Source of the DNA: a virus
Virus record (IMG/VR): IMGVR_UViG_3300043470_001186
Coordinates: 1 to 33,035 of that record
Direction: 5' to 3' (one strand)
Length of the DNA: 33,035 nucleotides
Positions 1 to 32,065 of the stretch are shown here, one piece after another (positions within the stretch are counted from its first letter, which is position 1; the number at the start of each line of letters is the position of its first letter). A program made the position numbers and the translations under genes. The notes under the pieces are model-generated. The model ran no database searches and was not told the origin of the DNA. It saw only the letters and a list, made by a program, of their open reading frames with translations.

Positions 1-556
1 ACAGTTTTCCGTATTCAAATATCGGATCAACCTTTTTGTCATTAATTAAAATCGTAGAGGCGTTATCGTCAATTAACTTAGACCATTTGATATAGGATAC
101 GTTTACAGCATTCCTACCAGCCATAACGTTAGGTCGTAACGCAACCTTAATCCCATTACGGCTACCGTCGTTGTTACTATTGCCTTCAATACTCTGAAGC
201 AATCCGTTCTCGTCTCTACTGCCAACAATACCAATATGGTAAGCGTCGTCATTCCTGTGGCATATGACTAAGTCTCCGGGAGATCCAGTCTTACTCAATG
301 CAAGTCTACGTTTGGCAGCCCAGTAAACGACATCGCAATCTGCACTGAAAGGTAATGGCCAGTCAATACCACATTTAGTTTCAAGCTCCATGCCCATACT
401 AGATACAAAACTACAGCACCAGAAACTTCCAATAGGTGCATTGACTTGTGCGTTCCACCTATCAATTAGGAAGCCACGGTTACTGCCAAGCGGCTGTTCC
501 TCTGTGCCAACATACCGCAACGCAATATCAATTAGTGTTTGCCTGTAGTCAATCAT
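1..556 (-). CDS. CHAP/NlpC-P60-like cell-wall hydrolase (endolysin), 3'-partial
   Basis: The gene starts at 556 and stays open for 185 codons to the left edge, so its C-terminus is missing. The visible part has the layout of a CHAP/NlpC-P60 cysteine hydrolase. It has a YVGTEEQPLGSNRG entry motif near residues 15-28, a catalytic-type Cys in FWCCSF (Cys47 or Cys48), GDLVICHRNDDAYHIGIVGS with the probable catalytic His107, and SIEGNSNNDGSRNG (residues 122-135) supplying the third polar residue. Known members cut peptidoglycan peptide or amide bonds. The start is set by an AGAGGT ribosome site, and its ATG overlaps the giant protein's stop as ATGA. It could be the lysis enzyme or a virion-borne lysin for entry; its place directly after the ejection genes allows either. 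The visible end (ILINDKKV...) may begin a second domain. Family assignment is fairly secure, role less so. Confidence 0.82.
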   Translation of the reverse strand, partial: MIDYRQTLIDIALRYVGTEEQPLGSNRGFLIDRWNAQVNAPIGSFWCCSFVSSMGMELETKCGIDWPLPFSADCDVVYWAAKRRLALSKTGSPGDLVICHRNDDAYHIGIVGSRDENGLLQSIEGNSNNDGSRNGIKVALRPNVMAGRNAVNVSYIKWSKLIDDNASTILINDKKVDPIFEYGKL

Positions 557-3500
557 TCCCGCCTACCTCTTACGAATGTGTCTAATGATGCACCAAAGTC
601 TTTACCGTTGAACTCCTGCCACATATTTTTGTATTGGGCATTGTCTCGCTCTTCTTTCATAGACTTATAACGAGGTGCACCATCTTGATAGACCTTTAAC
701 CAAGCTTCATAGTCCTCATCGTATTCAGTTGCACCAGCACCAGAGAAGTTCAATGCAGACTTCATAAGGTCGAACTGTACATCGTCATCAGACAACGTAG
801 CCTCTTCATCAAATACTAAACGCTTATGCAATTTCATGTCAATGTCTTTTAATGCATCCCTAGCGGATACGTTAAAGACTGAGTTGACGATAAAGTTACT
901 CAACTCACTTGGAGCCATTTCCATTAATGTCTTCCTAAGCGAACCGTCAGGAAGAGTCTCAATCATCTTCTGCCTCCAGAGCATATAAGACTCATTAGAT
1001 GCAAATGCGTCTTCACCATCAAACGTCTTTCCGAATGCAGCCATTTTCATAGTTTGCATCATTGGAGACAACTGATTCAAAACAAACTGCTTAAACGTCC
1101 ATTCAGGTACGTCCTGCCATGCGCCAGTATCTTTAGTAAATACACGCCGTGCTATGTTTTCAGTTTGACGCAATGTCCTACCTGTAGCACCCGGCATAGT
1201 CATTTGATACTTCTTGCCCCAAGGTGTTGATATCTGGAGGAATCCATTGTTGAAAGCAAAGTTATCCATGATGACCTTGAATCCCTCAGCTCGTTCTTCC
1301 TCATCAGAACTAAATAACGACATGAAAGCAGGGACGATCAATGGCGTACTAGTAGCAAGCTTCAAACCTGCATTGCTCATGTATGCACCAAGAACTCGCT
1401 TGATAATGTGCTTGCGAACTCTCCAGTCAAATCCTTCTGATCCTAGACCATAGACTTGTCTTTCCAATGTAGTATTAGCAACGTCTTTACCAATTGCCAT
1501 ACGAGAGATTTTATTAGCACCAGACTTCAATCCAAATACCGTTAATCCAAGCACTGGGTTCAACAGCACACGGCTACGAGCATACCTAGATGAGATAAAC
1601 ATATTGGCTACAGCCTTCTGCGCTCGTGCTAATCCTTCTACATCACTATATTGGCCAGACTGATTACCGTTAAGAAGGTTAATAGCCTCTGCGTATTGGC
1701 GACGTAAGTTCTCTCGGTAATATGGACGGCTTGTGCTATCACCAGCAACCTGCGTGTTTCCACTAGCATCACGCTTGTCAGATGGCGGAACTGCTTCCTG
1801 TGTTTGTTGCCATACACGCTGGAAGTCAATCAACGCAGCAAGGTCTTTATAGAAGACGTTTGCTCGCTCAAGAGGCGCAAGGTGTGGCATTACCTTTTGA
1901 ACTACTTTGCTGTCTCCATAGTAATCCCGAAGGCGATAGTTAAGTGGAACGTCTTCTCGTTGAATGTCAGGGTTATTCAACAAGCCTTCCTTCCATTCTT
2001 TGTGCCAACGTAAGTACTCAAGGTTGAGTCCATAAGACTCAAGCATATCTAAAGTTAACCCCGGTGTTTTGGCTAAGACCTTTTCCATCATGACATGGAC
2101 ATAGTTGTCACCCCATGCACTTACAGGAATCTTACTGTTGTGAAATGCATCTCCCATCAATGCAGGAGTGTTTGGTAAAGCTGCTCCTATTGCTCGCATT
2201 GCCATGGCTGGACCAAAGCTACGGTTGTTTGGATCAGCCATGTGTTCAATCATGACTGCTGGGTTTGCAAGCATCCATGACTGGTTGAATGCTACACCCA
2301 TATCACCGCCAAGGATTAATAATCGAGCAGTACCATTCAACTCGTTGAATGCGTTTGCTACAAAATCAAGTCCCGCATGTACACCAGCCATGTTTGCTCC
2401 GCCACGAGCTTGGTAAACACCACTAGAGTCCACGTCAAATTCAACTTGATCTGGCTTTAAGGATTCATCAAGCACTACATTGACTTCATCAACTACAGCA
2501 TTTTCTGCTTCTGCTACAGGGCTTTTAGCTAATGGCGATTGAACGTCATCGGCCAATGCAAGTGGGTCATATCCCTGAGAGAATAACGAACGTCTATTCC
2601 ACTGACCCGGATCACCCGACAATGGATTCTTTCCAGTAGGAGTCTCAACTTGCTTGAACACGCTGGATTGACGAGGGTCAATTCCATCGGCAACTTCTTC
2701 TGGTGTTGGAGCTATGCCAGCAATGATGTCCTGCTCTGCAAGCAACCGACGTGCTACGTAAACTTCTACAGGTGCAATACGTCTGTTGCCACGACCAGCT
2801 GCAACATCAACAAAGTTACCAAGCGAACGACGCATTGGTGATTCTTCATTACCAACTAAGCCCATGTCAGTAATGGTGAACTTACCCTTTCCTTCATAGG
2901 TAACTTTTAAATGGCGAGGCAGTACGTTGTACATCTCACCATTAGGGTCACTCTCAATTGCATCTAGCACCTGATCAAAGTTTGCAAATTTAAACTCACC
3001 GCTATACGGTCCTGTTGGATCGTACATGTCTGCGCCCCATGAATGAGGAAGAGGTACAGTAACAACTTGCGACTGACCTACCTTTTTGCTTGACTGAAGC
3101 ATATTAATAATCGTAAGTAACTGACCGCCAGCGTATGACTTTTGACCACCAGACATCAATCCAGCAAGGCGTAGTTTTAATCCCGGAGAAGCAACTTCTT
3201 CATTGGATCGGTTTACGTAAACATTAGTATCGTTTACGTTGTCATACACCTGCTGTTGCTTACGTCCGTAACCACCGTCTGGTAACTCGTCTCCTCTGAA
3301 CAACATCTCACCAGTTGATGCCGACGTACCCTTTGATGTTGGTAAATCAAAATGCCTTGCAATGGCTTCACTACCAGCCTTGCCATCATGCACATTCTTA
3401 CCAAGTACGTAAGTTGTTTCACCTGTCACAGGATTTGTTTTAGGAGTGGCAATACGTACAGTGTTCTCAGCTTGATCAACGGCTAAATACAATATGCCAT

Positions 3501-6500
3501 TGCTATCCGCTGAAGCTTTCTCACGTAAATCAGCCGAGTACCGGTTTGCCTTACCAAACTCTTTTAAGATTACAACTGGATCCTTGCTACCATTTACCCA
3601 GATAACATCATGAATAGAATAGTCGTTATAGGACTTCATTGCAGCGGAGCGATTGTTCAAGTCTAACGACATCATATGCGCAACAGCAGATACACCTGCA
3701 TATTCTTCACCATGAAGATTTGTGCCCATGTTCTCAAGAACTTGACCAACTGGCATGCCACGCATTTGAGCGTAGGCTCTTGCTGCATTAGCAATTAAAG
3801 CTCGTTGATTGACGATGTGAGGAACCATCTCTCCATCAACTAAACCTTGAAGCGTAGAGTTAAAATCAGATACTGTTCGTTGCTTAGGTCCATCAGTCCA
3901 ATTACTGTAACCAGTAATAAAGTCACGGAGTAATCCAACTACAGTGTCATTACTAAATGCTACACCCGTTGTAGATACACCAGCATTTTGCTCAAGTATT
4001 GAAACAACCTTCTTGACTTGATCTTCATCTAGACCCTGCTTAGTCATTTCAGATTGAAATGCCGCAGCGTCTTGAGACTTCAGTAAAGCATTTGCCACCT
4101 TGTCAGCAACTTCATTGGATTCGTCAAAGCCATTGAAGTAATCCATTAAGTCAGCAGCTACATCACGAACTACAAGTCCTTCAGAACGAGCAGCTCCAGT
4201 TCGAGCAGTGTAGAACATTAACGGATGACCCTTTAAGTTGCCATCGTCAGATACTAAAAATCTACTAGTTTGAATTGGGTCGTAGTTTATCTGTGGTCGT
4301 TGCCGTATATCCTGTGATGTTAATCCAAACAACGATCGGCGAGCAGAATCTAAACCTCTATCAATACGTTCTCTTACAGCATCTTGCTCTTCTGGGATAG
4401 TTCTATTAATCCACTCATATGTGCTTACAAGTGCTTGGTCAGCATATTCTTGAATCTTTGCACCAGCTCCAAGTTGAGACATTACACCAGCAGCGTGTTC
4501 AATAGTCCCTTCATATGCATCTTGACCAACGTCATAATTACCTACGTTTTTGCTAGGCATTCCCTCTACGTTGGACATTGTGCTAATAGCACGTTGCTTT
4601 AATTGATTGTACGAAACAACATCAACACGACCAACCATACTGGATGCAAGCGCAGAAGTTTTACCCCATACATTGTACAAAACAGATGACAACTGAGAAT
4701 TCCACTGAGCAGCTCGCCCAGAAACAACAGCGTCCTGTGGCATTGTTTCTGGCTTAAGAATCATATACTTAGACTTCAGCGTTGGTTTTTCATCAGTTGT
4801 AACCAAATATGCGTAACCGTCTATTCGGTCTTTTACTGAAATACCATCAACCGAAAGTACTGGAATACCATTCTCAGAATCAAGTGCGTAATATTTCTTA
4901 CCTTGATAATCAGCAACATGTTTTCCGACTAATTCAGCTGGAACACTCTTCAACTCTACTACATTCTTATTTACATGCAGGGTAGTTGCTGTAGATATCT
5001 TTGATGCGCCCGGTACACGAGTACGTCCACCACTTAAATCTATACGTGATGTTTGGGCTGTCATTGGATCAGATGTTTTTGCTCCAGCAGCATAACCAAC
5101 AACAGGAATGTCTTTCCTTAACGTAAGTTTGGTTGGACCATCAACTAAACTGTTTGTATTCAACAGTGAGATAGTTGATCCAAGTGGCAATGGAGTAGAG
5201 TAATCACGCCCATTCTTACTTGCAACAAAAGATGAGAATGGCAATTGCCATCTATGCTGATATCCAGTTACTGCTTTCCCGTCAGCCGTTTTAGTCGTAA
5301 CCCAGTCAGGGCCTTGGTAAGAACCTGATTGCATTTTTACAACAGCCATCTTAGCAAACTCACCTACGCGAGACATAATTGCTGTAGCAGATGACGATGG
5401 GTCGTAGTTCTTGCTAAAGATTGTCGGAGTATTCATTGCTGCAGTCATCATCGTAGTGGTGACTAACTCATTAACAATAGGATTGCTGTACAGGATATCG
5501 GTTGTATCCGCATGCATATCAACAAACGATCTGAACTCAAAATCATCTAATGCGTTTTGTGCAGCAATTAAAGATTCATCAGTGGTTGCATTTGCAACAG
5601 CATCTTGTAACTCTGAGTACTTTGCTTTAAATGTCTGCTCGGCAGCTTTTAACTTGACTAACGTCTTGCCAACCTCAGAGTTTGTTTTCCCTAACGAATC
5701 GTGCAACCACTCAACTGCATTGACAGCAAAATCGAGTTTCTCCTTGTAGGGTAAAGTGTGAAACACTCCGTGAAACATTTCGTGCCCAAGGCTCAATGTG
5801 TCACGCGCTTCATCACCAGTGCGATTTAGGTGTAGGAGTAAGTTTAACTGAGCACGTTCAGTCGCACGATTCTTATTCCGTTGCGCTGTAATTGAAGCAA
5901 AGCTAGTACCAATGTTACTTGCAGGAGAGAAGTCGCTTGACTTAGCAGAACTTACAAGCACACGAGCGTTACTTGCATAGAACTCATGCTGCACCTGAGC
6001 TGCACGATGAGTGTAAATAAATGTCTCTAACTTAGAACCATAATCTGCATCACCTGCGCCAGTAAATGCATCTTTAATTACACTGCCAAATGACTTGTCC
6101 TTCTTGTAGGCAAGTGGCTGACCTTCACGCACGTCATTGATCAAACCTTCAATAATGGCAGCACGTTCCGGTGTTGCTGTTTTAGCGACTGCGGATAACA
6201 AAGACATTACGTGTTGATTGGCTGAGTCAACAGTTCCGGACTTCATCTGATAATCAACGTGACGCATTGCATAACTATATGCATGTAGGTCGTAAACGTC
6301 TGCCAAAGAAGCTGCCATGTTGTCAATAAGCATCTTCATTTCTGGGCTTGCACCTTGAACATCTAAGGCATCACGGAAGATCAACGTCATACCGTTCTTG
6401 CCCATAGCACTCTTCTGGGTAAGATCAATAGCTTCTCCAGTAGGTGTATGCCCAAACAAACCGCTTTCACTTTGTAATGGCAGTTGCCAAGTAGCATTAC

Positions 6501-9500
6501 GAATATTGGTTGAGCCGTATTCGCTAAGCCACGTAGATGCTTCTTTGACAGATGCATTGACTGCATCAAATACATCCTGACTAACAATAGATGGCTTTAG
6601 AGGCTGTGATGCGTTTAAGTCATAGATTGCATCAAAGACTGACTGCACACGCTCAACTGCACCTTCAACAACTTCACCACCACGGCCTTCATTAGCAGAG
6701 TCCATTCGTTGCTGGGCTTCTGCGTCAGTTGCTAGTAAAGAAGCAATTCGCTTGAGTACTGGGTTAACCGCAAGAGTCTTCTGCTGTACTTCTTTTACTG
6801 CAGTTGCAACACGTGCTGCATCATCTAACGTTGGGTCAACTACTTTATTGAGAAGGCCTGTCATTAACTCTTGTGCTTTTAATGCTGCATTCTCAGGGCC
6901 TTGATTCATTGCCCTAGCCATTTCGCTTTCCGTGTAAGTCTTTGCGCTTTCACGTGCTTCTGGCGTAGGTAAACGTTCAATTAATGGAGACAGGATATTA
7001 GACCAGTCTTCAACAACAAGCCTACTGCCTTGCATACCTGCACGACGAACAACAGCTTGAACGCGATTACTTGTTTCTATGTAATCCGCAAACGTACCAT
7101 TTTTGATACGGTCGGCTGCCTCCCCAATAGTCATTTCACTATTAGGGAATTTCATATCCGCAAAGTACTGACGGAACTGCGTCTCAGGCATGTCCTGCTT
7201 AGATAGGTTATTGAAAATCTCTTTCATTGCAGGATCATCTGGCTTGATGTTTTTTATAGCATCGTTCAAGTCAGACATTGAGACCTTTGGATCTGCAGAA
7301 CTGATCTTTGCCTGTTCAGCTTGCCTACGTTGAGCCTGTGCTTTTACCTCTGCAAAGAACCTTCCGTTAGCAGCGTCAAAGTCGTCAAACGTAAGAGTCC
7401 TTTTACCTTGTGATGCAGGAATCAATCCTTGCATTTGACCCTTAAGTTGTTTCACAGTTACAGAGTTTTCACTCGACTTGTTTATACCTTGGAGTCTAAC
7501 CGCTAATGCCATCTGGTCACGTTGACTTAAACGACTTGCAAAACTCCATATCTCTTGTGATGTAACTCCATTACCAATCAAAAGACTTCGTAATGGAGTG
7601 ACAACTTGTGCCATCTGCTTAGCTCTTGTTTGAATAGAAGTAGCTTGAGCAGGAGTAATGTTGGCTCCTTGAGAATTAAGCTTGTCAATGTAGTTAGCAA
7701 CACGTGTAGTTAATCGCTGACCAGATCGCCAACCATGTACTGCTTCTAACGCACGGGTATTAACATCACGCTGAACTGCTTTTTCTAAGGTAGTACCACT
7801 GAAGTGCACAGTTGCACTTATGTCGGACTGAATGTTTACTGGACGACTACCAGCATGCCATTCTGTTACAGCATCAATCATGTGATTGATTTTGTTGATT
7901 GAGTTTAAATCAGCTCCATCAATATCAAGCAATAAGACAGCACTGACAATACGCTCTTTGTGTTCAGGTAACACGTTGTCGTCATTAAGTATATTTGTCA
8001 CTGCATCTTTAGCAGTCTGTGGTTCAAGTTGCTTTGTTTGCGATACTTCAACAACAGAATCTCTGACAAATGCAATTGTTCCATTGCGGCTAAGTTTAGC
8101 TTGTGCCTCTTGCAAAGTAGCTCGGTACGCAGGATCTGGTGCTAATCCATCTGCATCAATCATTGCGTCAACTGTCTCAGTTGGGCTAAGACTTTCTTCA
8201 ACCTTTGGTGGTTCTGGTGTTACAGGCTTAGCAGGGATTGGAGCATCAAGGTCAGAAACACGCTCAAGACGCATAATGCCTTGTTGGTCGTATCCTAAAT
8301 GTGGTTGCGTTTCTGGGACCAGTGTTTCTGGGTGCGCAAGAACAGTACGTCCTCCCTCATCACCAATGATTCCCGGTAATTGGTTTGCAATCTTTACGTG
8401 AACACCGTTGTGGTCAACACCAACAACAACACCTCTATCAATAAAGTGATGAGCCAAACGACTGTTTGCACTGACGTTTCCGTTTTCATCTACGCTTGAT
8501 GCAAACCGAACTACATCACCTATACGGATAGGCATGCCTTCATGTGCGTCAAATTTTTCATCATCAAACTTACCAACATAACCATACTTGTAATTAACAT
8601 CTTCATTATCAGGCTTGCCTGTAGAAGAGATCTTTTTAAGATAGTCGTGTATCTCGTCGTTAAACTTTGTGTCAACCTTATCTAAATCACCGCCCTCATT
8701 TTTAGCGTCAGCTAACTCTTGGCGGTATTCATTTGTTTTATCTTTAAGCCACTTGCGATCCTTTTCATTAATATAAACACGACGTACACCTTCTTGTGTT
8801 CCTGTTAAATTAATGTCAAGGTAATTAACGTCAACCATTGGGCGACCAATTTGTTGCGCTTGGATTAATGGTGTTTCAGCATAGCCAGTACCAGCATAGG
8901 TTCGCTGGCGAGTTTCAACTGGCTCTAATACTTGCGTTCGCTGATTTGTGTCAGCTTCTTTTGGTATTCGCCAGATACCGCCAGTAGGATCCTGATATGT
9001 ATTAAATGCACCCTTGTTGTTAATTAAACGAGTTGGCACTACACCCTTTGATCCTTCGGCTGTAGATTTGCCTACATAGACAGTAGAAGGAAATTCTTTT
9101 CTATCTACATCGCCAAAAGATGTATCGGAATAATTAATGCCACGACCAGACCCTTGTAATCCGGGGACACCAAAGCTTTCAGCTAAGTCGTCAAGCTGTT
9201 TAGTTAATTGATCACGTTTACTTGGCGGAGCAGTACGCATGATTTCTTCTCGACTGGCAGTGTAAGAAACAGTAGGGCCAGTGCCTTCAGAGCCACGTAC
9301 AGTTCGCGTTACGGTAAAGCCACCTCGGTTAAATCCACGTACTGTGTATTGATAAACACGACCATCTGCCATCGGTGGTTGCGCCCAGTCAATACGAGCC
9401 ATGTCTTCTCGGTTAAATCGTGCAATACCTGCAGCGTAGTTTTCACGAGGTAATGCACTTACAGTAACTTCAAATGATTCCGGAGTAAGCGTATGTGACG

Positions 9501-11691
9501 TTGGAGAAGACGTGTCGTCTGTTAAATAGATACCACTAAGGTCTGGTTTGTATATAGCAAGCTTTGGTCCCTGATCCGTTTCAATAACCATTGATGGATA
9601 AGGTAGTGCCTTCTTACTCTTAGGTGTTTCAGCGGCTACTGCTTCAGATGTACTTGTCTGCTGACGTAATGCATCAAGCGCAGTTTTCTCACCAGCAGTA
9701 GCAGATGCTTTGCGGAATGCAGAAGAAAATGGAAGTAGGTCATAATGCATACCTACGCCAGATTGAGCCTTTAACGGCTGATCGATTTCCATTCCAAGTA
9801 AACGCTTTGGTGCACCAGTACGCTCGTTAACAGAACGTAGAACATTACTATTAAGGGTTGGCATATAACCCTGTTCAATTTCACGTGACTCACGTAATTG
9901 ATTTAAATCATTAAGGTCATTAATTCTTTGGCCGGGAAATTCTTCTTGATGCCTTTGACTTGCATACGCCAACGCTTGATCAGGAGACAACCCTGTCGTA
10001 TTAATTAAGTGATTTAACAGAGGAGAACTTTTAATCGCTTCCTGCTGCATTTTACGGACTTGGCTGTCAACGTCATAACGAGCTTGAGCACCAACAGCCA
10101 ATTCTGTTTGATACTTATTAAAACGACCCATTAAAGAACGCTGAGGCGCATAGTCATACAAACCACCGGCTAAAGCGCTAACAACGTCAGTTGCTTTAGG
10201 TGCTTGGAATTTATTCTTATCTACTCCTGCAAATCCCAATGCTCCAGATCTAGCAATTTCTGTAGCAATGATAGGAGATGCATTAGCAATAGCATTGATT
10301 GCAGTAGCACTTAACATCTGTCCTGTAGGACGTACAGCCTCTAGCATTCGTGCTCGTGATCCAATGTTTAATGCAGTTGGGGCAGGAGGGAACATCGATG
10401 TAGCACTGCGTTGTGCTGCAGCAATTTCTTTTTGTGCTGTGCCTAATAATGCTTTTGAATTTTTTGCGCCACTAATAACGCTCTTTGCTCCAAACTGGGC
10501 CATACCAATAGTCAAGCCAGCAACGTCCATAAGACCTTGTGCAGCAGGAGCCATCTCTTGTGCAAGTGCAAGGTTTTCTTCACTCTCTTGACCTAACTCT
10601 CCACCAGAGCGACGCATTGCCCCTAATGGATTACCAAGAACATTTAATACAGGATTTCCTGTAATTGCCTCAAGTGCTTGCCCGCCAATCAATCCAGTTG
10701 CGTAAATACCCTGTGCTACTTTTGGACTAAGACCAATAGCTGCAGCAGCCTTTGGAATAGCTGCACCAGTTGCCATCATTCCTAGTACTTGAGGTGCAGT
10801 ATTAGCAGCAATATATCCACCAGCTTCTAGTGCATCAGCAGGTCCTGTAAAGCCTCCCATTACACTTCCAGCTGTGCCAGCCATACCTTCATTGGTAGAT
10901 GTGTCATTAAACCTATTGGCTACCGCAGCACGAGCAATTCGCATCTGCTGGTCTTCAGTTTGACGACGTGCCATTGTTTCTTCTGGAGTTTCTCCAGCAC
11001 CAATATCTAATCCGGTATCTCTAAATCGCTGAGTACCCCAACTCATAATGTCGCCAGCTTGTGCTGCTACGCCCTTGTATGCACCACGAGCAATCTTTGG
11101 GATAGACTCACGGTTGTATGTGCCACGCGCTGCTGCGCCAAGGTAGTTACCAATAAGTGCTTGCTCATCAACAGGTTTGATTGAATCAACCTGAGATTGC
11201 ATTTCATTACGACGTTTAGTTTTGTCGATTAAGACATCTTCAATAGGGCGATCAAAGTTATAACTACCATTTTGTATAAACGCACTACGCATCAATGTGC
11301 GTTCTTTTTTTGTACTCGGATCTAAATACGTAACAGGCTTTCCACTAACAGTAACTGGACGACTAGATACCTCATTTAAAATGTCAGTGTATTTTTTTAA
11401 TCGTTGCCTATGTGTAGTTGTATCAATAACACCTTGACGCAAGGCTTCGTTTAATGCGTACTTTGTAATGTCGGTCCCATTAGAGTCACGACGAATAATT
11501 TGTGCGTAGTCGTTATTAGTGCGCTTAGGCTTAGCAGCAACAGAATCAAATTGAGTAACCCATTGCGAAAGCTTTTTGCGTTCTTCTGTAGTGCCTGTAC
11601 CAATAGCTTTCTTAGAACCAGTCGTATCTACATTTACTGTTTCATACTTACGGGTCTTAGGGTTGTAACGCTTGATTGCACCTTGAGGCAT
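553..11691 (-). CDS. Giant internal virion / DNA-ejection protein, polyvalent type, with a zincin-like HExxH motif (3712 aa)
   Basis: This single uninterrupted frame fills a third of the window. A GGTGGAG ribosome site precedes its ATG, and it starts 2 bases after the 611-residue gene. Visible features in order: Ala/Gly-rich hydrophobic segments at about residues 278-365, 386-405 and 459-489; a small beta, SH3/KOW-like stretch near 1060-1130; a long helical Gln/Ala/Glu-rich middle; HEMFHGVFH at 1970-1978 with a possible third metal ligand, Glu2052, in DDFEFRS; and hydrophobic C-terminal segments near 3372-3395 and 3436-3464. The part around 3118-3400 resembles the C-terminal domains of phage large polyvalent proteins. 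By position (third after two smaller helical proteins) it matches T7 gp16, which crosses the envelope during DNA ejection, but it is nearly three times as long. I infer a packaged ejection protein with protease activity. Phage N4 virion RNA polymerase has a similar size, but I found no polymerase motifs. Confidence 0.75.
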   Translation of the reverse strand: MPQGAIKRYNPKTRKYETVNVDTTGSKKAIGTGTTEERKKLSQWVTQFDSVAAKPKRTNNDYAQIIRRDSNGTDITKYALNEALRQGVIDTTTHRQRLKKYTDILNEVSSRPVTVSGKPVTYLDPSTKKERTLMRSAFIQNGSYNFDRPIEDVLIDKTKRRNEMQSQVDSIKPVDEQALIGNYLGAAARGTYNRESIPKIARGAYKGVAAQAGDIMSWGTQRFRDTGLDIGAGETPEETMARRQTEDQQMRIARAAVANRFNDTSTNEGMAGTAGSVMGGFTGPADALEAGGYIAANTAPQVLGMMATGAAIPKAAAAIGLSPKVAQGIYATGLIGGQALEAITGNPVLNVLGNPLGAMRRSGGELGQESEENLALAQEMAPAAQGLMDVAGLTIGMAQFGAKSVISGAKNSKALLGTAQKEIAAAQRSATSMFPPAPTALNIGSRARMLEAVRPTGQMLSATAINAIANASPIIATEIARSGALGFAGVDKNKFQAPKATDVVSALAGGLYDYAPQRSLMGRFNKYQTELAVGAQARYDVDSQVRKMQQEAIKSSPLLNHLINTTGLSPDQALAYASQRHQEEFPGQRINDLNDLNQLRESREIEQGYMPTLNSNVLRSVNERTGAPKRLLGMEIDQPLKAQSGVGMHYDLLPFSSAFRKASATAGEKTALDALRQQTSTSEAVAAETPKSKKALPYPSMVIETDQGPKLAIYKPDLSGIYLTDDTSSPTSHTLTPESFEVTVSALPRENYAAGIARFNREDMARIDWAQPPMADGRVYQYTVRGFNRGGFTVTRTVRGSEGTGPTVSYTASREEIMRTAPPSKRDQLTKQLDDLAESFGVPGLQGSGRGINYSDTSFGDVDRKEFPSTVYVGKSTAEGSKGVVPTRLINNKGAFNTYQDPTGGIWRIPKEADTNQRTQVLEPVETRQRTYAGTGYAETPLIQAQQIGRPMVDVNYLDINLTGTQEGVRRVYINEKDRKWLKDKTNEYRQELADAKNEGGDLDKVDTKFNDEIHDYLKKISSTGKPDNEDVNYKYGYVGKFDDEKFDAHEGMPIRIGDVVRFASSVDENGNVSANSRLAHHFIDRGVVVGVDHNGVHVKIANQLPGIIGDEGGRTVLAHPETLVPETQPHLGYDQQGIMRLERVSDLDAPIPAKPVTPEPPKVEESLSPTETVDAMIDADGLAPDPAYRATLQEAQAKLSRNGTIAFVRDSVVEVSQTKQLEPQTAKDAVTNILNDDNVLPEHKERIVSAVLLLDIDGADLNSINKINHMIDAVTEWHAGSRPVNIQSDISATVHFSGTTLEKAVQRDVNTRALEAVHGWRSGQRLTTRVANYIDKLNSQGANITPAQATSIQTRAKQMAQVVTPLRSLLIGNGVTSQEIWSFASRLSQRDQMALAVRLQGINKSSENSVTVKQLKGQMQGLIPASQGKRTLTFDDFDAANGRFFAEVKAQAQRRQAEQAKISSADPKVSMSDLNDAIKNIKPDDPAMKEIFNNLSKQDMPETQFRQYFADMKFPNSEMTIGEAADRIKNGTFADYIETSNRVQAVVRRAGMQGSRLVVEDWSNILSPLIERLPTPEARESAKTYTESEMARAMNQGPENAALKAQELMTGLLNKVVDPTLDDAARVATAVKEVQQKTLAVNPVLKRIASLLATDAEAQQRMDSANEGRGGEVVEGAVERVQSVFDAIYDLNASQPLKPSIVSQDVFDAVNASVKEASTWLSEYGSTNIRNATWQLPLQSESGLFGHTPTGEAIDLTQKSAMGKNGMTLIFRDALDVQGASPEMKMLIDNMAASLADVYDLHAYSYAMRHVDYQMKSGTVDSANQHVMSLLSAVAKTATPERAAIIEGLINDVREGQPLAYKKDKSFGSVIKDAFTGAGDADYGSKLETFIYTHRAAQVQHEFYASNARVLVSSAKSSDFSPASNIGTSFASITAQRNKNRATERAQLNLLLHLNRTGDEARDTLSLGHEMFHGVFHTLPYKEKLDFAVNAVEWLHDSLGKTNSEVGKTLVKLKAAEQTFKAKYSELQDAVANATTDESLIAAQNALDDFEFRSFVDMHADTTDILYSNPIVNELVTTTMMTAAMNTPTIFSKNYDPSSSATAIMSRVGEFAKMAVVKMQSGSYQGPDWVTTKTADGKAVTGYQHRWQLPFSSFVASKNGRDYSTPLPLGSTISLLNTNSLVDGPTKLTLRKDIPVVGYAAGAKTSDPMTAQTSRIDLSGGRTRVPGASKISTATTLHVNKNVVELKSVPAELVGKHVADYQGKKYYALDSENGIPVLSVDGISVKDRIDGYAYLVTTDEKPTLKSKYMILKPETMPQDAVVSGRAAQWNSQLSSVLYNVWGKTSALASSMVGRVDVVSYNQLKQRAISTMSNVEGMPSKNVGNYDVGQDAYEGTIEHAAGVMSQLGAGAKIQEYADQALVSTYEWINRTIPEEQDAVRERIDRGLDSARRSLFGLTSQDIRQRPQINYDPIQTSRFLVSDDGNLKGHPLMFYTARTGAARSEGLVVRDVAADLMDYFNGFDESNEVADKVANALLKSQDAAAFQSEMTKQGLDEDQVKKVVSILEQNAGVSTTGVAFSNDTVVGLLRDFITGYSNWTDGPKQRTVSDFNSTLQGLVDGEMVPHIVNQRALIANAARAYAQMRGMPVGQVLENMGTNLHGEEYAGVSAVAHMMSLDLNNRSAAMKSYNDYSIHDVIWVNGSKDPVVILKEFGKANRYSADLREKASADSNGILYLAVDQAENTVRIATPKTNPVTGETTYVLGKNVHDGKAGSEAIARHFDLPTSKGTSASTGEMLFRGDELPDGGYGRKQQQVYDNVNDTNVYVNRSNEEVASPGLKLRLAGLMSGGQKSYAGGQLLTIINMLQSSKKVGQSQVVTVPLPHSWGADMYDPTGPYSGEFKFANFDQVLDAIESDPNGEMYNVLPRHLKVTYEGKGKFTITDMGLVGNEESPMRRSLGNFVDVAAGRGNRRIAPVEVYVARRLLAEQDIIAGIAPTPEEVADGIDPRQSSVFKQVETPTGKNPLSGDPGQWNRRSLFSQGYDPLALADDVQSPLAKSPVAEAENAVVDEVNVVLDESLKPDQVEFDVDSSGVYQARGGANMAGVHAGLDFVANAFNELNGTARLLILGGDMGVAFNQSWMLANPAVMIEHMADPNNRSFGPAMAMRAIGAALPNTPALMGDAFHNSKIPVSAWGDNYVHVMMEKVLAKTPGLTLDMLESYGLNLEYLRWHKEWKEGLLNNPDIQREDVPLNYRLRDYYGDSKVVQKVMPHLAPLERANVFYKDLAALIDFQRVWQQTQEAVPPSDKRDASGNTQVAGDSTSRPYYRENLRRQYAEAINLLNGNQSGQYSDVEGLARAQKAVANMFISSRYARSRVLLNPVLGLTVFGLKSGANKISRMAIGKDVANTTLERQVYGLGSEGFDWRVRKHIIKRVLGAYMSNAGLKLATSTPLIVPAFMSLFSSDEEERAEGFKVIMDNFAFNNGFLQISTPWGKKYQMTMPGATGRTLRQTENIARRVFTKDTGAWQDVPEWTFKQFVLNQLSPMMQTMKMAAFGKTFDGEDAFASNESYMLWRQKMIETLPDGSLRKTLMEMAPSELSNFIVNSVFNVSARDALKDIDMKLHKRLVFDEEATLSDDDVQFDLMKSALNFSGAGATEYDEDYEAWLKVYQDGAPRYKSMKEERDNAQYKNMWQEFNGKDFGASLDTFVRGRRE
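5758..5784 (-). other. Zincin-like metallopeptidase motif HEMFHGVFH in the giant protein
   Basis: Codons 1970-1978 read HEMFHGVFH. His1970 and His1974 would bind zinc and Glu1971 would act as the general base in the HExxH family. His1978 gives an HExxHxxxH spacing, shorter than the metzincin HExxHxxGxxH. The local sequence (SLGHEMFHGVFHTLPYKEK) reads as a helix, as in known zincins. Glu2052 is a candidate third ligand. Activity is inferred from the motif alone. Confidence 0.6.
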
Positions 11692-11693: not shown

Positions 11694-13529
11694 TTATTCG
11701 TCTCCACCAGCACGTCCTGAAACACCAGTACCACCACTAGTAACTTGTGGTATTGGAACACTGTTATACACTTCTGCTAATCCGGGAACAGCACTCATCT
11801 TTTGTCTAAAACTTTTGCTGCTTTCGTCAATAAGACGCATAGCATCGGCTTTATTTCCGCTAACAATAGCCCTGACAAAATCACCTTTTTTAACTCCAAC
11901 ATCAGCTACTAATCCACGCAATGCTGCAATTTGAGTACGTTTATTTTCAATCTCAGTTGTAGTGCCACCAACATTGCTTTTACCTTTTGGTTTCAAGGCT
12001 ACAATGTCACGCTCAAGGCTTTTAATTGTTTCATTGAGGTGCGCTGATGTTTGTTGTCCTTGCACATTATCCCATGTGTTTACAGCTCGGCTTACTACCA
12101 TTGACAAGCTTTCAGGTTTGGCAGGATCAGCTTTACCAATATTGTCAATTTCTTTCCTAAGCTTTTGAACTCTAAGGGTAGCTTCTTTATTTTCAAGCTG
12201 CCACAAACCACGCTCTTGATTAAACTTTGCTTGCTTGCGACCTTCTTCTTTTCGTGCAATTGTCTGTTGAAGTTCGTCAGCTCGTGCAGCTCGTGCGTTT
12301 TTAGATTCATTTGCAAGTCGTTCAATGACCTTTGGGTCAATAAAACCCTTATCTGATATACGACTAGCAATACGGCCAACTACATTTGGTGCATAGTCAG
12401 CTAAGTCACCAACTAGTTCAGAATCAAGAAACCGCTGAATCTCAGCTTCATTACCAATGTGCCCACGATAATCATTAAGAAGGTCAGTCAAGTTACCGCC
12501 ATAAACTTGGTCGTTAAACTTGTTAGATCTAAATGAACTGCCACGATTACTAAAGTAAGCATCAACAATTTTATTAATGATCTCATTTGTTGGAACATCA
12601 ATTTCACTTGGTGACCACTCGCCTCCTTGAACATTCTTGGCTAACCTAGTACGCAATGCTGCTAATGCTGTAAGGGGATCTACTTGAGGTACAACAGTAG
12701 GCTTTTGTGATGTAGCCAACTTAGTTGGTGGGACACCAATGCCTAAAAATGAATTTGCTGGCAATACTCCAGATTGAAAAACTTTATCAAGGGGTGATCC
12801 CATCATTGAAACAGGAACACCTGCAGGTGCAGCTAGTTCATTTCCATCAATGATGGTTGGACCCGTACCCATAGGTCCTCCGCCTTGACTTGTAGCAGGT
12901 AATGAAAACTGTGATGGGAACTGCTGTGTTGTAGTTTCTTGTGGTGCAACACCTCTGCGTCTAAACGCATCAGGCATTGCAAACTCACCAAGCTCATACT
13001 TTTTAGTTACTGGATTCCAGTCAATGCCATAGGTTGTATCGCCAGCAGTATCTGTCTGGAATTGCTTTAATGCTGCAGCATAGTCAGATTCGGTTTTACT
13101 CATCCCCGTTCGCAATGCTTCAAGTTGTGAAGGAAGCATGCGCTTACCAGACTTAGCTAAGTCTTCAATTTGCTTACGTGTACTAAGTACCTTATTGTAC
13201 GCAGCAGACAAAGGAGATGCTTTACCTTGTATGTATGCATTGACTGCAGCCGTCCTGTCTTCTTTTTCTTTCGTGAGAAGACGGTCTCTATCAGCTTGCG
13301 CAAGAGAATCTAACAATGACTGCCTATCTCGATCAGCTTTAGCCCAATCAAATTGCTGGCGCTGTTGTTTACGCGCTTCTGTTTTGTCTCCTAATTCCAT
13401 AAGGAACTGAGCATTGTTTTTCTGCTGTTCAAGGTTTTGCATTCCAAACTGCTGACGCATTTGCTCGGACTGACGTTGACCTTGTTGCAGTGATTGTAAA
13501 TAAGCAAGTAATGGAGTAGCGCTTGTCAT
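11694..13529 (-). CDS. Internal virion protein, T7 gp15-like by position (611 aa)
   Basis: No sequence family is recognised with certainty. The N-terminal 130 residues are very rich in Gln, Arg, Asp and Glu (for example QQGQRQSEQMRQQFGMQ) and should form long helices or coiled coil. A Pro/Gly/Thr-rich linker follows at about residues 190-290, and a second charged helical part at about 400-520. There is no signal peptide or clear membrane segment. The gene sits between an Ala/Gln-rich protein and the giant ejection protein, the place held by gp15 between gp14 and gp16 in T7-like phages. I infer a structural partner in the DNA-ejection conduit. A TAAGGTAGA ribosome site lies 14 bases after the previous gene. 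The order and composition support the call; homology to gp15 is not shown. Confidence 0.6.
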   Translation of the reverse strand: MTSATPLLAYLQSLQQGQRQSEQMRQQFGMQNLEQQKNNAQFLMELGDKTEARKQQRQQFDWAKADRDRQSLLDSLAQADRDRLLTKEKEDRTAAVNAYIQGKASPLSAAYNKVLSTRKQIEDLAKSGKRMLPSQLEALRTGMSKTESDYAAALKQFQTDTAGDTTYGIDWNPVTKKYELGEFAMPDAFRRRGVAPQETTTQQFPSQFSLPATSQGGGPMGTGPTIIDGNELAAPAGVPVSMMGSPLDKVFQSGVLPANSFLGIGVPPTKLATSQKPTVVPQVDPLTALAALRTRLAKNVQGGEWSPSEIDVPTNEIINKIVDAYFSNRGSSFRSNKFNDQVYGGNLTDLLNDYRGHIGNEAEIQRFLDSELVGDLADYAPNVVGRIASRISDKGFIDPKVIERLANESKNARAARADELQQTIARKEEGRKQAKFNQERGLWQLENKEATLRVQKLRKEIDNIGKADPAKPESLSMVVSRAVNTWDNVQGQQTSAHLNETIKSLERDIVALKPKGKSNVGGTTTEIENKRTQIAALRGLVADVGVKKGDFVRAIVSGNKADAMRLIDESSKSFRQKMSAVPGLAEVYNSVPIPQVTSGGTGVSGRAGGDE

Positions 13530-13543: not shown

Positions 13544-14485
13544 TTAAGGCCTTAACTGGAAACCACTACGATTGTAAGCTGAGTTAATACTAGGTTGCGG
13601 TGCAAATCCTAAATTAGCACCAATACTTACTGGCTTTTGTTGACCAAATACAGTACCTGTAGCTCCGGGTAAATAAGGATTATAGGATTGACCATATGTT
13701 TGCATTGCTTTTATCTGAGCGTCATTCATAGCTTGTTGTTGCTTCATCTGCGCATCAAACTGGCGACGTTGTGCTTGATCAGCTCTCATGCCACCAAGCA
13801 TACTCATCAACGCTGATTGATCGCCTTGACGTGCAGCAAGCTGGTTGTTGTACGTATTGCCAAGCTCACCTGCCATGTTCCCAAGTTCGTTGTAACCTTG
13901 TTGCATTCCACCAAGCATACTCATTAATTGATTTTGAGAGTCTTGATAGTTCTGCCCAGCCATACTTGCTGCAGCAGCCATACGTGCTGGCGCTTGTAAT
14001 TCATACGCATTTGAATAATCGCTAATGCTTTTATTAATAGCAGAACGATTGGTGTTATTAATAGAGTTCTGTAATCCGACTCGTGCTCCACCTTGTAAGC
14101 CAGACTTACTTGCCATATCTGCACCAGCTGCACTTGCAGCCTGTGCGTTATTGTTTAGTATTTCGTTAGCAGGACCAAGCCCTTTAAAGATGTCTGTGTT
14201 GGTCAAAGGCTTATTAGCACCTTCGATAGCCATATCAGTCATCTTGTCATACATAGGCTGATACTTTTTATTACGTGCATCCTGCTTATCAAGCATAGAT
14301 TGAAAATAATTCATCTGCCTACGCTTAGCGTTGTAGGCAGACTTCTGTTGTTCTAGATATGGATTTTTATTTGGCTTAATCAGATTGTTTAAGATGTAAC
14401 TAACGCCCATGTCGGCCAATGGCCCACCAAAAGCGCCAGCAATCTTGCCACCTATTGCTCCACCAATTTGTCGATTGTTTGCCAT
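13544..14485 (-). CDS. Internal virion protein, T7 gp14-like by position (313 aa)
   Basis: The N-terminus is Gly/Ala-rich and weakly hydrophobic (GGAIGGKIAGAFGGPLADMG, residues 8-27), a pattern common in phage ejection proteins that insert into membranes. The middle is Ala/Gln/Asn/Met-rich and helical. It contains a repeated short motif, LMSMLGGMQQGYNELG and LMSMLGGMRADQAQRR, about 41 residues apart. The C-terminus is Gly/Pro/Gln-rich and probably flexible. A 17-base gap precedes it, and AGGATAGG is the likely ribosome site. As the smallest of three consecutive helical proteins ending in the giant protein, it fits the gp14 position in T7-like phages, whose protein forms a pore in the outer membrane. 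That role is inferred from order and composition only. Confidence 0.58.
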   Translation of the reverse strand: MANNRQIGGAIGGKIAGAFGGPLADMGVSYILNNLIKPNKNPYLEQQKSAYNAKRRQMNYFQSMLDKQDARNKKYQPMYDKMTDMAIEGANKPLTNTDIFKGLGPANEILNNNAQAASAAGADMASKSGLQGGARVGLQNSINNTNRSAINKSISDYSNAYELQAPARMAAAASMAGQNYQDSQNQLMSMLGGMQQGYNELGNMAGELGNTYNNQLAARQGDQSALMSMLGGMRADQAQRRQFDAQMKQQQAMNDAQIKAMQTYGQSYNPYLPGATGTVFGQQKPVSIGANLGFAPQPSINSAYNRSGFQLRP

Positions 14486-14502: not shown

Positions 14503-14973
14503 TTAAACTACGGCCTTATCTAGTAAAGCAAGCCACCCATAATTACCTGATGCATCTAAACAAGCAAGCCACGTAACAGTTTCATACTGCTTAGATAACG
14601 ACGTCCATGTTGAATACTTCCAAAGGCTAGATGGAGAATCAACAACAAACGATATTGTGTTTGCTGATGAATCCATTTTAGCTGCAATAACTCTCCTGCC
14701 ATAACATGATGCAGCCTGCGGTAATGTCAATACAAAACTACCTGTTGTTGCATCACATATTGCCAATTGATCTGCATACATAACCACATTGTCAGACTTG
14801 TATATTGTCTGCTGCATTTGGTTAGCAGAATATGGCACAGTTGGATTACCAACATACGTACGTATAGTCTGTATTAATCCAGACACTCCCGGCCCATAAA
14901 CTTTGTTTAATGCCGGAGCACGACGTGAACCAGATGATGAATCTGGAGTTGTAACAGGACCGGGTATTGCCAT
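14503..14973 (-). CDS. Small tail-fibre-like structural protein (156 aa)
   Basis: The C-terminal two thirds carry a pattern frequent in short phage fibre and appendage domains: YADQLAICDATTGSFVLTLP, then GRRVIAAKMDSSANTISFVV and SKQYETVTWLACLDASGNYG. These are alternating beta strands with small residues, as in trimeric beta structures. The N-terminus is Pro/Ser-rich and likely unstructured. There is no signal peptide or membrane segment. The start codon shares its A with the stop of the 1444-residue nozzle-like gene in the string TAATG, so translation is probably coupled to it and the two products may act together at the tail tip. A receptor-contacting or tail-tip role is an inference. Confidence 0.55.
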   Translation of the reverse strand: MAIPGPVTTPDSSSGSRRAPALNKVYGPGVSGLIQTIRTYVGNPTVPYSANQMQQTIYKSDNVVMYADQLAICDATTGSFVLTLPQAASCYGRRVIAAKMDSSANTISFVVDSPSSLWKYSTWTSLSKQYETVTWLACLDASGNYGWLALLDKAVV

Positions 14974-25279: not shown

Positions 25280-26323
25280 TTAGTTGACCTTGACGTTCAA
25301 GCGTCCTAGAGCACGAACATGAGGAATCCAGAGACCAGCACCCCAGTCAAATAAGACGTTGTGCATGATGCCGTTTTCCTTGCTGAGTCCAAGATACGTT
25401 GGCTTAAACGGACCAGACTGCCAACCCTGTACGTAGCCAGAACCGTAACGCACAAAGTAGATCTGAGTTGCAGTACCAGCGGTAATACCCGTAATTGTCT
25501 GGTTGTTAGGAATGACAGGAGTTACACCATCAGACTTACGACCAACAACACGAATAGTAACATTCTTGTACTTTTCCACTGGGCGATCGTAACTGTCTTG
25601 AGTAATGTCAAAACCAGCACCAATACCCATAACACGGATAGCCATTTCAACCTGACGCTTTGTTTGCTCAGACATGTATGCAACAATGCCATCTCCATCA
25701 GGAGAGTTCATGTTGTCAAGAACATACTGGAAGTCAGCGATTAAACGGTTTGCAGCAGCAGCACCAGTAGTAGCAGATGCAGCTGCAAACAAGTTTGCAG
25801 TTGAAATATCAGCAGTGGATGTAATAGACATTTCACCGGGAATGTCATATGCGTTGAAGTTATCTAAGCGATACTTAAGTCCTGGAAAACAATCTGAGCT
25901 ATTACCAATGACCGTAGATGTCGGATCATTGTTAATATATTTATCATTGAAATCGTATGCAAAACCTTCTAAGAACATCTTGATCTGTGCGTCTACAGGA
26001 TCAATGATGTTATTAGGCTGGTCAAGCAAAACGTGGTCAACAGTAATCTTGTTACGAACAAGATACATTGCCTCTTCATACGACTTCGGCTTTCCACGAA
26101 CAGCGGCTGGTTCTGTGTTAATTCCAGTCCAGTTTGGGGTAGGAATATTACCGTTTAAGTAACGTACGCCAACCTGCTTAAGGCTAGGCGAGGTGAAGAA
26201 TGGAATATCCTTGATAGCATTCCATGTTTGGTGAAGGCTCTTGGTGATTTCCTTAACCAGCGGATCGTTGGACAAAATAGCCTGATCCGCGAGGGTAAGG
26301 GCACCATTAAAGTCAATAGCCAT
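25280..26323 (-). CDS. Major capsid protein (347 aa)
   Basis: The N-terminus (ALTLADQAILSNDPLVKEIT, residues 8-27) and the following IKDIPFFTSPSLKQVGVRYL, with a NWTGINTEPAAVRGKPKSYE block near residues 64-83, are typical of podovirus major capsid proteins of the HK97-fold type without a fused protease. A long helix with DPVDAQIKMFLEGFAYDFND fits the fold's spine region. The gene follows the scaffold-like gene and has the best ribosome site in the cluster (AAGGAG at 26333-26338). The product would build the icosahedral head shell. Length is in the usual range of 300-450. Order and motif style agree; I could not confirm the exact family. Confidence 0.82.
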   Translation of the reverse strand: MAIDFNGALTLADQAILSNDPLVKEITKSLHQTWNAIKDIPFFTSPSLKQVGVRYLNGNIPTPNWTGINTEPAAVRGKPKSYEEAMYLVRNKITVDHVLLDQPNNIIDPVDAQIKMFLEGFAYDFNDKYINNDPTSTVIGNSSDCFPGLKYRLDNFNAYDIPGEMSITSTADISTANLFAAASATTGAAAANRLIADFQYVLDNMNSPDGDGIVAYMSEQTKRQVEMAIRVMGIGAGFDITQDSYDRPVEKYKNVTIRVVGRKSDGVTPVIPNNQTITGITAGTATQIYFVRYGSGYVQGWQSGPFKPTYLGLSKENGIMHNVLFDWGAGLWIPHVRALGRLNVKVN

Positions 26324-26338: not shown

Positions 26339-27224
26339 AAAGTTGATTCGGTGACCTGCCGATACCTAACAGTTTACTGATTGTTCCTAAAGCGGAACGA
26401 GACTGTACGGGATCGGGCTGAGAGACGACTTGTTGGTTTGAATATGATGTGTCCATCGGAACTGGAACTTGCATTCGTTCAGAAAGCATCCCAGTTAACT
26501 GAGGAACAATAGATTCAACAATTCCGGCCACACTGTTGTGTACGTATTCTGCTGCATCCATAGGATTCATTCCGTTAGAAATGAGGCCCTCATACATATC
26601 CATACCACGCCTAGCATATGGGTACTGTTGCAATGCGGACTCCCGCTGCTGGTTAACCATGTACTCAGACATCTGATTCATTAGCCTGTCATAGCGCATT
26701 CGCTGAACTTCAGCTTCTGCCTGTGCATGTGCTAATTCAGGACTTAATACTTCCTGATTCATTAATTGGTCGTATTCGGCTCTAACCTGTTGTTCTTGCT
26801 GTTCCCATTGCTGCTCTTGTAAAGCGCGTTGGACATCAGCTGCAGATTGGAATCCGTTAGACTCTAATTGCTGAATAACATCTGACCAACGTTCTAACCG
26901 TTCTTGATATTCTCTGCCGGAACGAGCTTGTTCGTTAACTTCACGAAATCGCTCGTATGGCACTGATCCCGGTTGGTCGTCTGCCAGTGTGTCATACAGT
27001 TGCTGACGTAGTTGAGACTCCAGATCTTCTGGCGTTACATCTACTTCATCATAAGTATTTTCGTCTGAGCCAAGCTGCCATTCATTAGATTCTTCGTTGT
27101 TTAACGCCCATTCGTTAGGGTCGGCGGCTCCCTGTATCGAATCTAATAACGCTTCAGCTGCTCCATAATCGCCCGTCGCCGCTGCTGGTGAGTCAGCGGT
27201 TCGCATCACCATCTCATCGGACAT
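26337..27224 (-). CDS. Scaffold-like capsid assembly protein (295 aa)
   Basis: The protein is acidic at its N-terminus (residues 30-75 rich in Glu and Asp), contains the motif SVPYERFREVNEQ often seen in phage scaffolds at about residues 86-98, and is then strongly helical and Gln/Glu-rich (ALQEQQWEQQEQQVRAEYDQ). The C-terminus is short and basic (KLLGIGRSPNQL), as in scaffolds that dock on coat protein. It lies between portal and capsid, the classic scaffold position. The ATG shares a base with the portal stop (TAATG) and has a TAGGAG site. It should guide head assembly and leave the mature particle. No protease motif is seen. Confidence 0.75.
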   Translation of the reverse strand: MSDEMVMRTADSPAAATGDYGAAEALLDSIQGAADPNEWALNNEESNEWQLGSDENTYDEVDVTPEDLESQLRQQLYDTLADDQPGSVPYERFREVNEQARSGREYQERLERWSDVIQQLESNGFQSAADVQRALQEQQWEQQEQQVRAEYDQLMNQEVLSPELAHAQAEAEVQRMRYDRLMNQMSEYMVNQQRESALQQYPYARRGMDMYEGLISNGMNPMDAAEYVHNSVAGIVESIVPQLTGMLSERMQVPVPMDTSYSNQQVVSQPDPVQSRSALGTISKLLGIGRSPNQL

Positions 27225-29461: not shown

Positions 29462-29592
29462 TCACCAACCTTTTCAATCAACTTAAGCAACTTCTCCGCA
29501 CGAAGAAATACTAAATCCTTGTGTATGACGTACATGCCATAGGCATTTCCGATTAACGCAATGACTACAATAAAAAATTGCCATAGCTCCAT
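29452..29592 (-). CDS. Single-pass membrane micro-protein between terminase and portal (46 aa)
   Basis: No family is recognised. The product starts MELWQFFIVVIALIGNAYGM, a single hydrophobic helix of about 17 residues, and goes on with a charged amphipathic tail (HKDLVFLRAEKLLKLIEKVG). Its ATG shares the A of the terminase stop (TAATG), and its stop lies 10 bases inside the portal start. The frame therefore exactly fills the gap between two certain genes, which supports it as real. There is no Shine-Dalgarno, so translation would depend on coupling. The layout recalls small lysis or spanin-like proteins, but that is only a guess. Confidence 0.6.
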   Translation of the reverse strand: MELWQFFIVVIALIGNAYGMYVIHKDLVFLRAEKLLKLIEKVGEWV

Positions 29593-31340: not shown

Positions 31341-32031
31341 CAACTACCTCCGCATCCATAATTTCTTCATCTTCACTTTGATATGTGCGCAGGATTTTTC
31401 CTATGCCACCACGAATAGCTTTTAGTTCTTCTGCGTTTTTGACATGCGTTTTAATTACGCCGAATACCTGCATGATCAAACTGTACGCTTGATCAACCTC
31501 TATTGTGTAAGCCTTAGCATGCATCATGCGTTGTTCAGTTTCAATAATGTCTGTTCGTTTTTCAATCAATCGAACAACTTCTTCACTTCCAGCAAATGCG
31601 TCTTCACCTTTAGTTACAAGCTCCTCTAAAGTGTCAATGCATTTCTGAATGTTATCCATATCTCCAGATCTATATGCTCGCTTAAGTGCGTTTACGCTTT
31701 GAGCTAAAGCACGATAATGATCTAAAGACAAACCCTCTGATATGCTTTCGGCTCGCATATCCATCAATGCTGTTACAAATGCAACATCATCTTTTAATGA
31801 CCATAAATCTGGATCGTCACGCAGTTCGTTAATGCGAGTAAGTAGCGTTTCATTGACCGCGCTAAATCGTTTTTTAAAAGGACTATACAAGCCATGCTCA
31901 AACTTATGGCTTGTAGTTACCTTGTAAAGTTCTTTGTTATGCTTTGGGCAATAAGCAGATGATCCTGTAGCCATATTGCCACATTGTGTTTCACCTACCT
32001 CGTTTTTAATAATTGCCTCGCAACGTTTCAT
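31303..32031 (-). CDS. Putative terminase small subunit with N-terminal Cys/His cluster (242 aa)
   Basis: The N-terminus has Cys4, Cys17, Cys28 and His31 in MKRCEA, ETQCGNM and YCPKH, a likely zinc site. The rest is helical and charged: LLTRINELRDDPDLWSLKDD near residues 63-82, then EALKRAYRSGDM-like helices and a stretch of coiled coil to about residue 200. Its end is acidic (SEDEEIMDAEVVDE). Small terminase subunits bind DNA and hand it to the large subunit. The call rests on its place directly before the large subunit, with a 38-base overlap, and on its size. No clear helix-turn-helix is seen. There is no ribosome site before ATG 32031, and the upstream codon is a stop. Confidence 0.55.
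   Translation of the reverse strand: MKRCEAIIKNEVGETQCGNMATGSSAYCPKHNKELYKVTTSHKFEHGLYSPFKKRFSAVNETLLTRINELRDDPDLWSLKDDVAFVTALMDMRAESISEGLSLDHYRALAQSVNALKRAYRSGDMDNIQKCIDTLEELVTKGEDAFAGSEEVVRLIEKRTDIIETEQRMMHAKAYTIEVDQAYSLIMQVFGVIKTHVKNAEELKAIRGGIGKILRTYQSEDEEIMDAEVVDETVSQHTSNAS
31347..31351 (-). promoter_or_regulatory. Ribosome binding site GGAGG that sets the terminase start
   Basis: GGAGG is 6 bases before ATG 31340 and 3 before the alternative TTG 31343. Spacing favours the ATG. The site lies inside the end of the preceding gene. Confidence 0.75.
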
Positions 32032-32039: not shown

Positions 32040-32065
32040 TATACCGTCAGTATGCTTACGGTATA
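32040..32065 (-). other. Intergenic 8-bp stem-loop before the small-terminase-like gene
   Basis: TATACCGT at 32040-32047 and ACGGTATA at 32058-32065 form a perfect 8-bp inverted repeat with a 10-base loop. It covers the stop codon of the upstream gene and ends 8 bases before the next ATG. No run of T follows, so it is not a typical terminator. It could be an RNA processing site, a translational control hairpin or a protein-binding palindrome. Confidence 0.5.

Follow-up and report, generated by a model that had tools for sequence, protein, structure and literature searches.

The window analysed here is the whole of a linear virus record from IMG/VR, 33035 bases long, which is a fragment of a podovirus genome. 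Its late genes follow the order TerS, TerL, P22-type portal, scaffold, major capsid protein, tail genes (including one for a 1444-aa protein), genes for proteins of 156, 313, and 611 aa, a giant open reading frame (ORF), and a CHAP endolysin. The features on which the analysis draws, with the evidence for each in brackets, are the following.

2..556, minus strand: CHAP-type endolysin, truncated by the window end, 258 aa in relative G002 (domain search)
553..11691, minus strand: giant ORF, 3712 aa, 0 Cys, proposed ejected protein (ORF, composition, conservation)
11694..13529, minus strand: trio member 2, 611 aa, 0 Cys, in a position like that of gp15 or N4 gp51 (gene order)
13544..14485, minus strand: trio member 1, 313 aa, 0 Cys, in a position like that of gp14 or N4 gp52 (gene order)
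14503..14973, minus strand: conserved 156-aa neighbor that marks the upstream edge of the trio and contains Cys (gene order in relatives)
25280..26323, minus strand: major capsid protein, phrog_212 (profile)
27224..29461, minus strand: P22-type portal protein, PF16510 (profile)
29592..31343, minus strand: terminase large subunit, phrog_38, the query used to find the lineage (profile)
32056..33033, minus strand: ORF without Cys, upstream of TerS and running off the window edge, belonging to a second Cys-free block of the relatives, denoted block B (Cys count)

The first-pass annotation had described the giant as a single open frame filling a third of the window and as the third protein of a T7-like trio. 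Both descriptions hold: the frame starts with ATG, runs for 3712 codons without an internal stop and covers 34% of the window, and the order 156-aa protein, small, mid, and giant protein is invariant in the 18 genomes on which the gene-order and Cys statistics are based. A homologue in relative G045 has the identical length of 3712 aa at 58% amino acid identity (dN 0.38, dS 1.9), and of the 97 differences between the window giant and the near-identical G002, 85 affect the third position of a codon. Given this conservation and third-position bias, the ORF is a real gene and, judging from the same comparisons, is under strong purifying selection. Searches of Pfam, PHROG, NCBIfam, and PDB sequences with the giant returned nothing significant, and tblastn of two parts of the giant against 50,697 phage records gave zero matches. 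Two divergent C-terminal modules used as tblastn queries gave none either. A BLAST match between the giant and the neighboring 459-aa DnaB helicase (33% over 58 aa) was dismissed as chance.

Relatives of the window were found in IMG/VR with the portal (27) and with TerL (at least 230, of which 80 were kept for analysis), and they include contigs of 58-67 kb. Three of the contigs (G010, G012, and G023) carry direct repeats of 114-123 bp at both ends, which may be terminal repeats or may reflect assembly circularity. The nearest annotated phages are distant, namely, Microbacterium phage Shocker and Arthrobacter phages by portal, and phages of the Roseobacter CRP-3 and Rhizobium RHph_N3_13 types by TerL (22-31% identity). 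A TerL search of bacterial genome contigs yielded no relative, prophage, or host. The lineage consists of uncultured short-tailed phages and has no close cultured relatives. CRP-3 and RHph_N3_13, the nearest cultured phages, encode Cys-free proteins of 1179 and 1255 aa, respectively, similar in size to gp16, as the last products of a Cys-poor series of late genes. Among the non-structural genes of G006 are those for DnaB, an O-like initiator, Gam, ThyX, and dUTPase, and no DNA or RNA polymerase was detected among them.

Every relative contig that reaches the slot carries a giant of 3364-5539 aa there, some contigs ending within the gene. Iterated profiles identified the modules shared by these proteins, and the layout of the window giant is as follows.

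10252..10845, minus strand: Ala/Gly-rich hydrophobic segments, residues 283-480, the proposed membrane-inserting region, in a place similar to that in the N4 virion RNA polymerase (vRNAP) (hydropathy and a weak collinear hhalign match to N4 95-338)
8137..8253, minus strand: Pro/Glu-rich linker between the N-terminal part and the helical middle, residues 1147-1185 (sequence)
6091..8139, minus strand: middle region, residues 1185-1867, predicted to be all-helical at low to moderate pLDDT, without an RNAP signature (model and profiles)
5326..6090, minus strand: zincin-like metallopeptidase module, residues 1868-2122, common to the whole family (profiles)
5770..5784, minus strand: HEMFH, residues 1970-1974, predicted zinc ligands and catalytic Glu (motif and alignment)
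5467..5469, minus strand: Glu 2075, invariant in the alignment, predicted third zinc ligand (alignment)
592..2454, minus strand: conserved C-terminal module, residues 3080-3700, with the first ~300 aa common to the most divergent giants (iterated profiles)

The ~255-aa zinc module was recovered in the giants at E values from 1e-94 to 0.006. The first ~300 aa of the C-terminal module unite the group of the window with several very divergent groups; in the G008-G012 group, the profiles detect this module weakly or not at all. The stretches between the two modules are specific to subgroups, so that the giants are mosaic. In the giant of G033, a P-loop kinase domain (AAA_33, 1.5e-12; phrog_2071, 6e-29) is present along with DUF7178; this protein (G033:1796-18415, L180) is the longest of the giants, at 5539 aa, and its P-loop domain is polynucleotide kinase-like. 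Residues 1343-1625 of another giant (G025:11482-24942, L203) match positions 1023-1296 of phrog_21, which comprises long portal proteins, with an E value of 1e-31. Hydrophobic or uncharged N-terminal segments are present in all nine giants inspected, and N4 has similar ones.

The total absence of Cys from the giant, a feature missed by the first-pass annotation, extends to both other members of the trio. At the rate found in the other virion proteins (0.87%), about 32 Cys would be expected in the window giant, and about 55 would be expected from base composition by codon position. The trio is Cys-free or nearly so in all 18 genomes (Fisher p 2e-9 to 2e-18 relative to the remaining virion genes). 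The same depletion was observed in the established ejection proteins of four other phages (PMC8954989, PMC12633501): there is no Cys in N4 gp50 (3500 aa), gp51, and gp52, T7 gp15 and gp16, P22 gp7, gp16, and gp20, or phiKMV gp35-37, and there is a single Cys in T7 gp14. Conversely, at least two Cys were counted in each portal, large tail, and TerL protein examined in the control phages, and non-ejected virion proteins of similar length carry Cys both in these phages and in the window lineage. Earlier work noted that N4-type vRNAPs lack Cys and ascribed this to their having to pass through the tail (PMC3915230), and the same feature has also served as an argument for the giant of phage StenR_269 (PMC10747016); the extension of this rule to P22, T7, and phiKMV is a count made here on a few phages. 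Cys is also missing from scaffolds and from a few further proteins shorter than about 700 aa, which makes the signal strong only in long proteins or in a set taken together; a short Cys-free protein is not diagnostic. Zero Cys fits transit of an unfolded chain through the oxidizing periplasm.

Cys depletion also marks a second locus. Immediately upstream of TerS, most relatives have two Cys-free ORFs, one small (188-355 aa) and one large (1160-2178 aa), accompanied in some cases by one or two others (p for the block down to 1e-10). This block B lies at 32056-33033 in the window, which ends inside it, at 12014-18947 in G012, at 12002-18812 in G008, and at 48998-55225 in G006. The block B ORFs tested against Pfam had no family match, and BLAST detected no similarity between them and the giants. 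By the Cys criterion, the block B proteins are possibly ejected too.

Taken with the gene order, these data make it probable that the giant is an internal virion (ejection) protein, packaged inside the head along with both Cys-free neighbors and threaded through the portal and tail at infection. An ejection role had been proposed from length and context alone; the order conserved in 18 genomes, the zero-Cys trio, the Ala/Gly-rich hydrophobic segment near the N-terminus and the missing RNAP signatures give it independent, indirect support. The gene itself, its order, the Cys depletion, the conserved zinc-site residues, and the mosaic middle are observed; packaging, ejection, membrane insertion, and proteolysis are inferred. 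Were the giant instead a non-virion protein, for instance an intracellular polyprotein made late in infection, Cys depletion would have no obvious reason in the cytoplasm, where the likewise late TerL of this lineage retains 9-12 Cys in 582 aa; moreover, the giant always lies in the late structural operon, flanked by tail genes and the endolysin. We regard this reading as highly improbable.

The core of the ejection candidate is likely to be a zinc protease, specifically a zincin-like metallopeptidase. An HExxH motif, at residue 1970 in the window and overlooked by the first-pass annotation, occurs at residues 1783-2586 across the giants except for G028 and G034, and H1970, E1971, H1974, and E2075 are invariant in an alignment of 15 sequences. 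In injected polyvalent proteins, the zincin pattern consists of HExxH in one helix and a Glu in the next (PMC5512222); the four invariant residues of the giants follow this pattern. The giants of G028 (G028:37149-48419) and G034 (G034:777-10871) keep the module with the first His replaced (EELSH), which suggests loss of catalysis in one subclade; proteolysis would therefore not be essential in every member. An AlphaFold model of the zincin region is helical (mean pLDDT 54) and is too poor to show the zincin fold, in which helices accompany a three-stranded sheet.

HExxH recurs in comparable phage proteins: in all seven N4-type vRNAPs examined (the motif of the N4 vRNAP C-terminal domain has been described [PMC12633501, PMC5512222]), in phiKMV gp37, in crAss001 gp47, and, in two copies, in the StenR_269 giant. 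Comparison by hhalign shows the modules of N4 and phiKMV to be related (probability 92%, E 7e-7). The match joins C1 of N4 gp50 (L076:4524-15026) to phiKMV gp37 (L219:11567-15580) around HEAVH 423, so that a zincin is common to the ejection proteins of two phage families. The motif of the window giant is located downstream of the middle domain, an order corresponding to that in N4; similarity to N4 C1 is weak, the hhalign match covering only ~20 columns around the motif (probability 8%), and does not establish common descent. In the 2270-aa StenR_269 giant (L220:736-7548), annotated as a putative vRNAP, the motifs lie at 776 and 1030 in zincin-like contexts. The 2341-aa crAss001 gp47 (L218:6120-13145), annotated as a putative RNAP subunit, contains one Cys and HEAFH at 2157, so that both features recur in a further phage group.

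The conserved zinc site also bears on the possibility that the giant is a large structural protein, part of an internal core or of the tail, which would remain in the particle without delivering anything. The giant adjoins the tail genes and bears no enzymatic signature over most of its length, as such a component might; yet the tail, portal, and other large non-ejected virion proteins of the same genomes contain Cys, and a conserved zinc site, a mosaic middle, and, in G033, a kinase domain are unlike a structural core. A purely structural role thus appears quite unlikely.

A protein of this size in this slot calls to mind the N4 vRNAP, and the first-pass annotation, which made that comparison, had seen no polymerase motif. 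Profile searches agree. A profile built from six N4 RNAP+C1 sequences recovered the left-out DSS3P2 at an E value of 1e-69 and left the window and 15 relatives unmatched even at E<=10; the T7 RNAP profile PF00940 found KP8, the positive control, and none of the 15 relatives; and neither T/DxxGR and R..K..Y nor related RNAP motifs were present in the cluster alignment. With hhalign, the giant and the N4 vRNAP gave weak collinear signals (E 0.05-0.07), all outside the RNAP domain. Hence, the giant does not appear to be a detectable vRNAP, the defining domain having been searched for and not found.

A highly divergent vRNAP of the N4 kind, with an RNAP domain beyond sequence recognition, would account for the shared slot, size, Cys-free trio, and HExxH, for the weak collinear hhalign matches around HExxH and in the hydrophobic N-terminal region, and for the fact that no other RNAP was detected in the 15 relatives; there is also the precedent of the StenR_269 giant, named a putative vRNAP from its size, helicity, and absence of Cys (PMC10747016). 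Against these stand the negative searches, made with profiles whose controls worked, and the dimensions of the region in question: the stretch from the linker to the zinc module is ~680 aa long and predicted to be all-helical, whereas the N4 counterpart comprises 1100 aa of mixed fold. In addition, the lambda-type replication genes (O-like initiator and DnaB) suggest that host polymerases are used. We therefore consider a hidden polymerase unlikely and retain the polymerase-free ejection protein as the preferred reading.

Among known systems, the closest in architecture is N4 gp50 with gp51 and gp52 (Schitoviridae). Like the giant, gp50 is Cys-free, of comparable length, and last in a Cys-free trio of small, mid, and giant proteins (PMC12633501), with a hydrophobic N-terminal part and, after its HExxH module, a large helical C-terminal part. 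Unlike gp50, the giant has no detected RNAP domain, and its lineage differs from N4 in the portal, terminase, and replication genes and in having the endolysin directly downstream. In T7 (gp14-gp15-gp16) and phiKMV (gp35-gp37), the trio has the same order and slot, and the long members are Cys-free; phiKMV gp37 has the zincin-like site related to that of N4. T7 gp16 is 1318 aa long, and the giant is 2.8 times longer, close to the threefold difference first noted. No lytic transglycosylase or other Pfam domain was found in the giant, and there was no profile match to the T7 and phiKMV proteins nor any significant sequence or profile match to known ejection proteins. When the small and mid trio members were compared by hhalign with proteins of T7, P22, N4, phiKMV, crAss, and CRP-3, nothing significant emerged either. 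Thus, the giant may work like the ejection proteins N4 vRNAP and T7 gp16 by analogy, without being a homologue of T7 gp16.

The StenR_269 giant shares with ours an origin in a podovirus (66 kb), a Cys-free helical make-up, and a place in the late block; it differs in being shorter, in belonging to a different genome, and in showing no profile similarity to either core module. A further parallel is offered by the polyvalent proteins described by Iyer et al. in 2017, huge multidomain proteins proposed to be injected with DNA, in which the zincin-like MPTase is the commonest domain (PMC5512222). Huge size, the zincin and a structural match with an LPD label connect the giant to these proteins, as does the kinase domain in the case of G033. 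Structure prediction gave two AlphaFold models, both poor (mean pLDDT 54 and 43): the model of residues 1185-2250 (mean pLDDT 54) consists of helices alone as far as the zinc module, a Foldseek search of PDB with the weak model returned only noise to helical solenoids, and the C-terminal model was too poor for a structure search. The best match in BFVD, and the sole strong one, is A0A6J5NEC8 from an uncultured phage (E 2e-23, 25% identity, about 1030 columns), labeled "Large polyvalent protein associated domain-containing protein"; the giant family is therefore already in UniProt under an LPD-type name. The Pfam LPD models did not match the giant, and neither did LPD38, for which the control went unmatched too, so that this comparison is uninformative. 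Polyvalent proteins have several catalytic domains, in contrast to the one predicted activity, the zincin, of the window giant; the suggestion that it may combine several activities is only partly supported, with one predicted function here and a second domain clear only in G033. Overall, the giant seems nearest in kind to injected polyvalent proteins and vRNAPs rather than to T7 gp16 as such, and we consider it a candidate polyvalent-type injected protein.

In the scheme that we propose, the trio would follow T7 and N4 in being packaged in the head and then ejected. The conduit through the outer membrane and periplasm would be formed by the 313- and 611-aa proteins, and the hydrophobic N-terminal part of the giant (about residues 283-480) would enter the inner membrane. 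The rest of the giant, a string of helical domains around the zincin-like peptidase, would reach the host cytoplasm, where the zincin could trim the giant itself after delivery or cut host proteins. More broadly, it is conceivable, if somewhat short of probable, that this lineage injects about 6-7 thousand Cys-free residues from two blocks, the 313/611/3712-aa trio and the small and 1.2-2.2-kaa proteins beside the terminase genes, and that the giant serves as a self-processing carrier without a polymerase, with exchangeable effector modules lodged in its mosaic middle, the kinase of one relative being an example.

An N4-sized candidate ejection protein outside Schitoviridae, in which no polymerase was found, indicates that giant size need not mean an RNA polymerase cargo. 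The absence of Cys and an embedded zincin, both recurring in ejected phage proteins, appear to be separable from the polymerase. The Cys criterion offers a simple way to recognize, from sequence, proteins that travel through phage tails, and it predicts a second, unsuspected ejected set beside the terminase genes.
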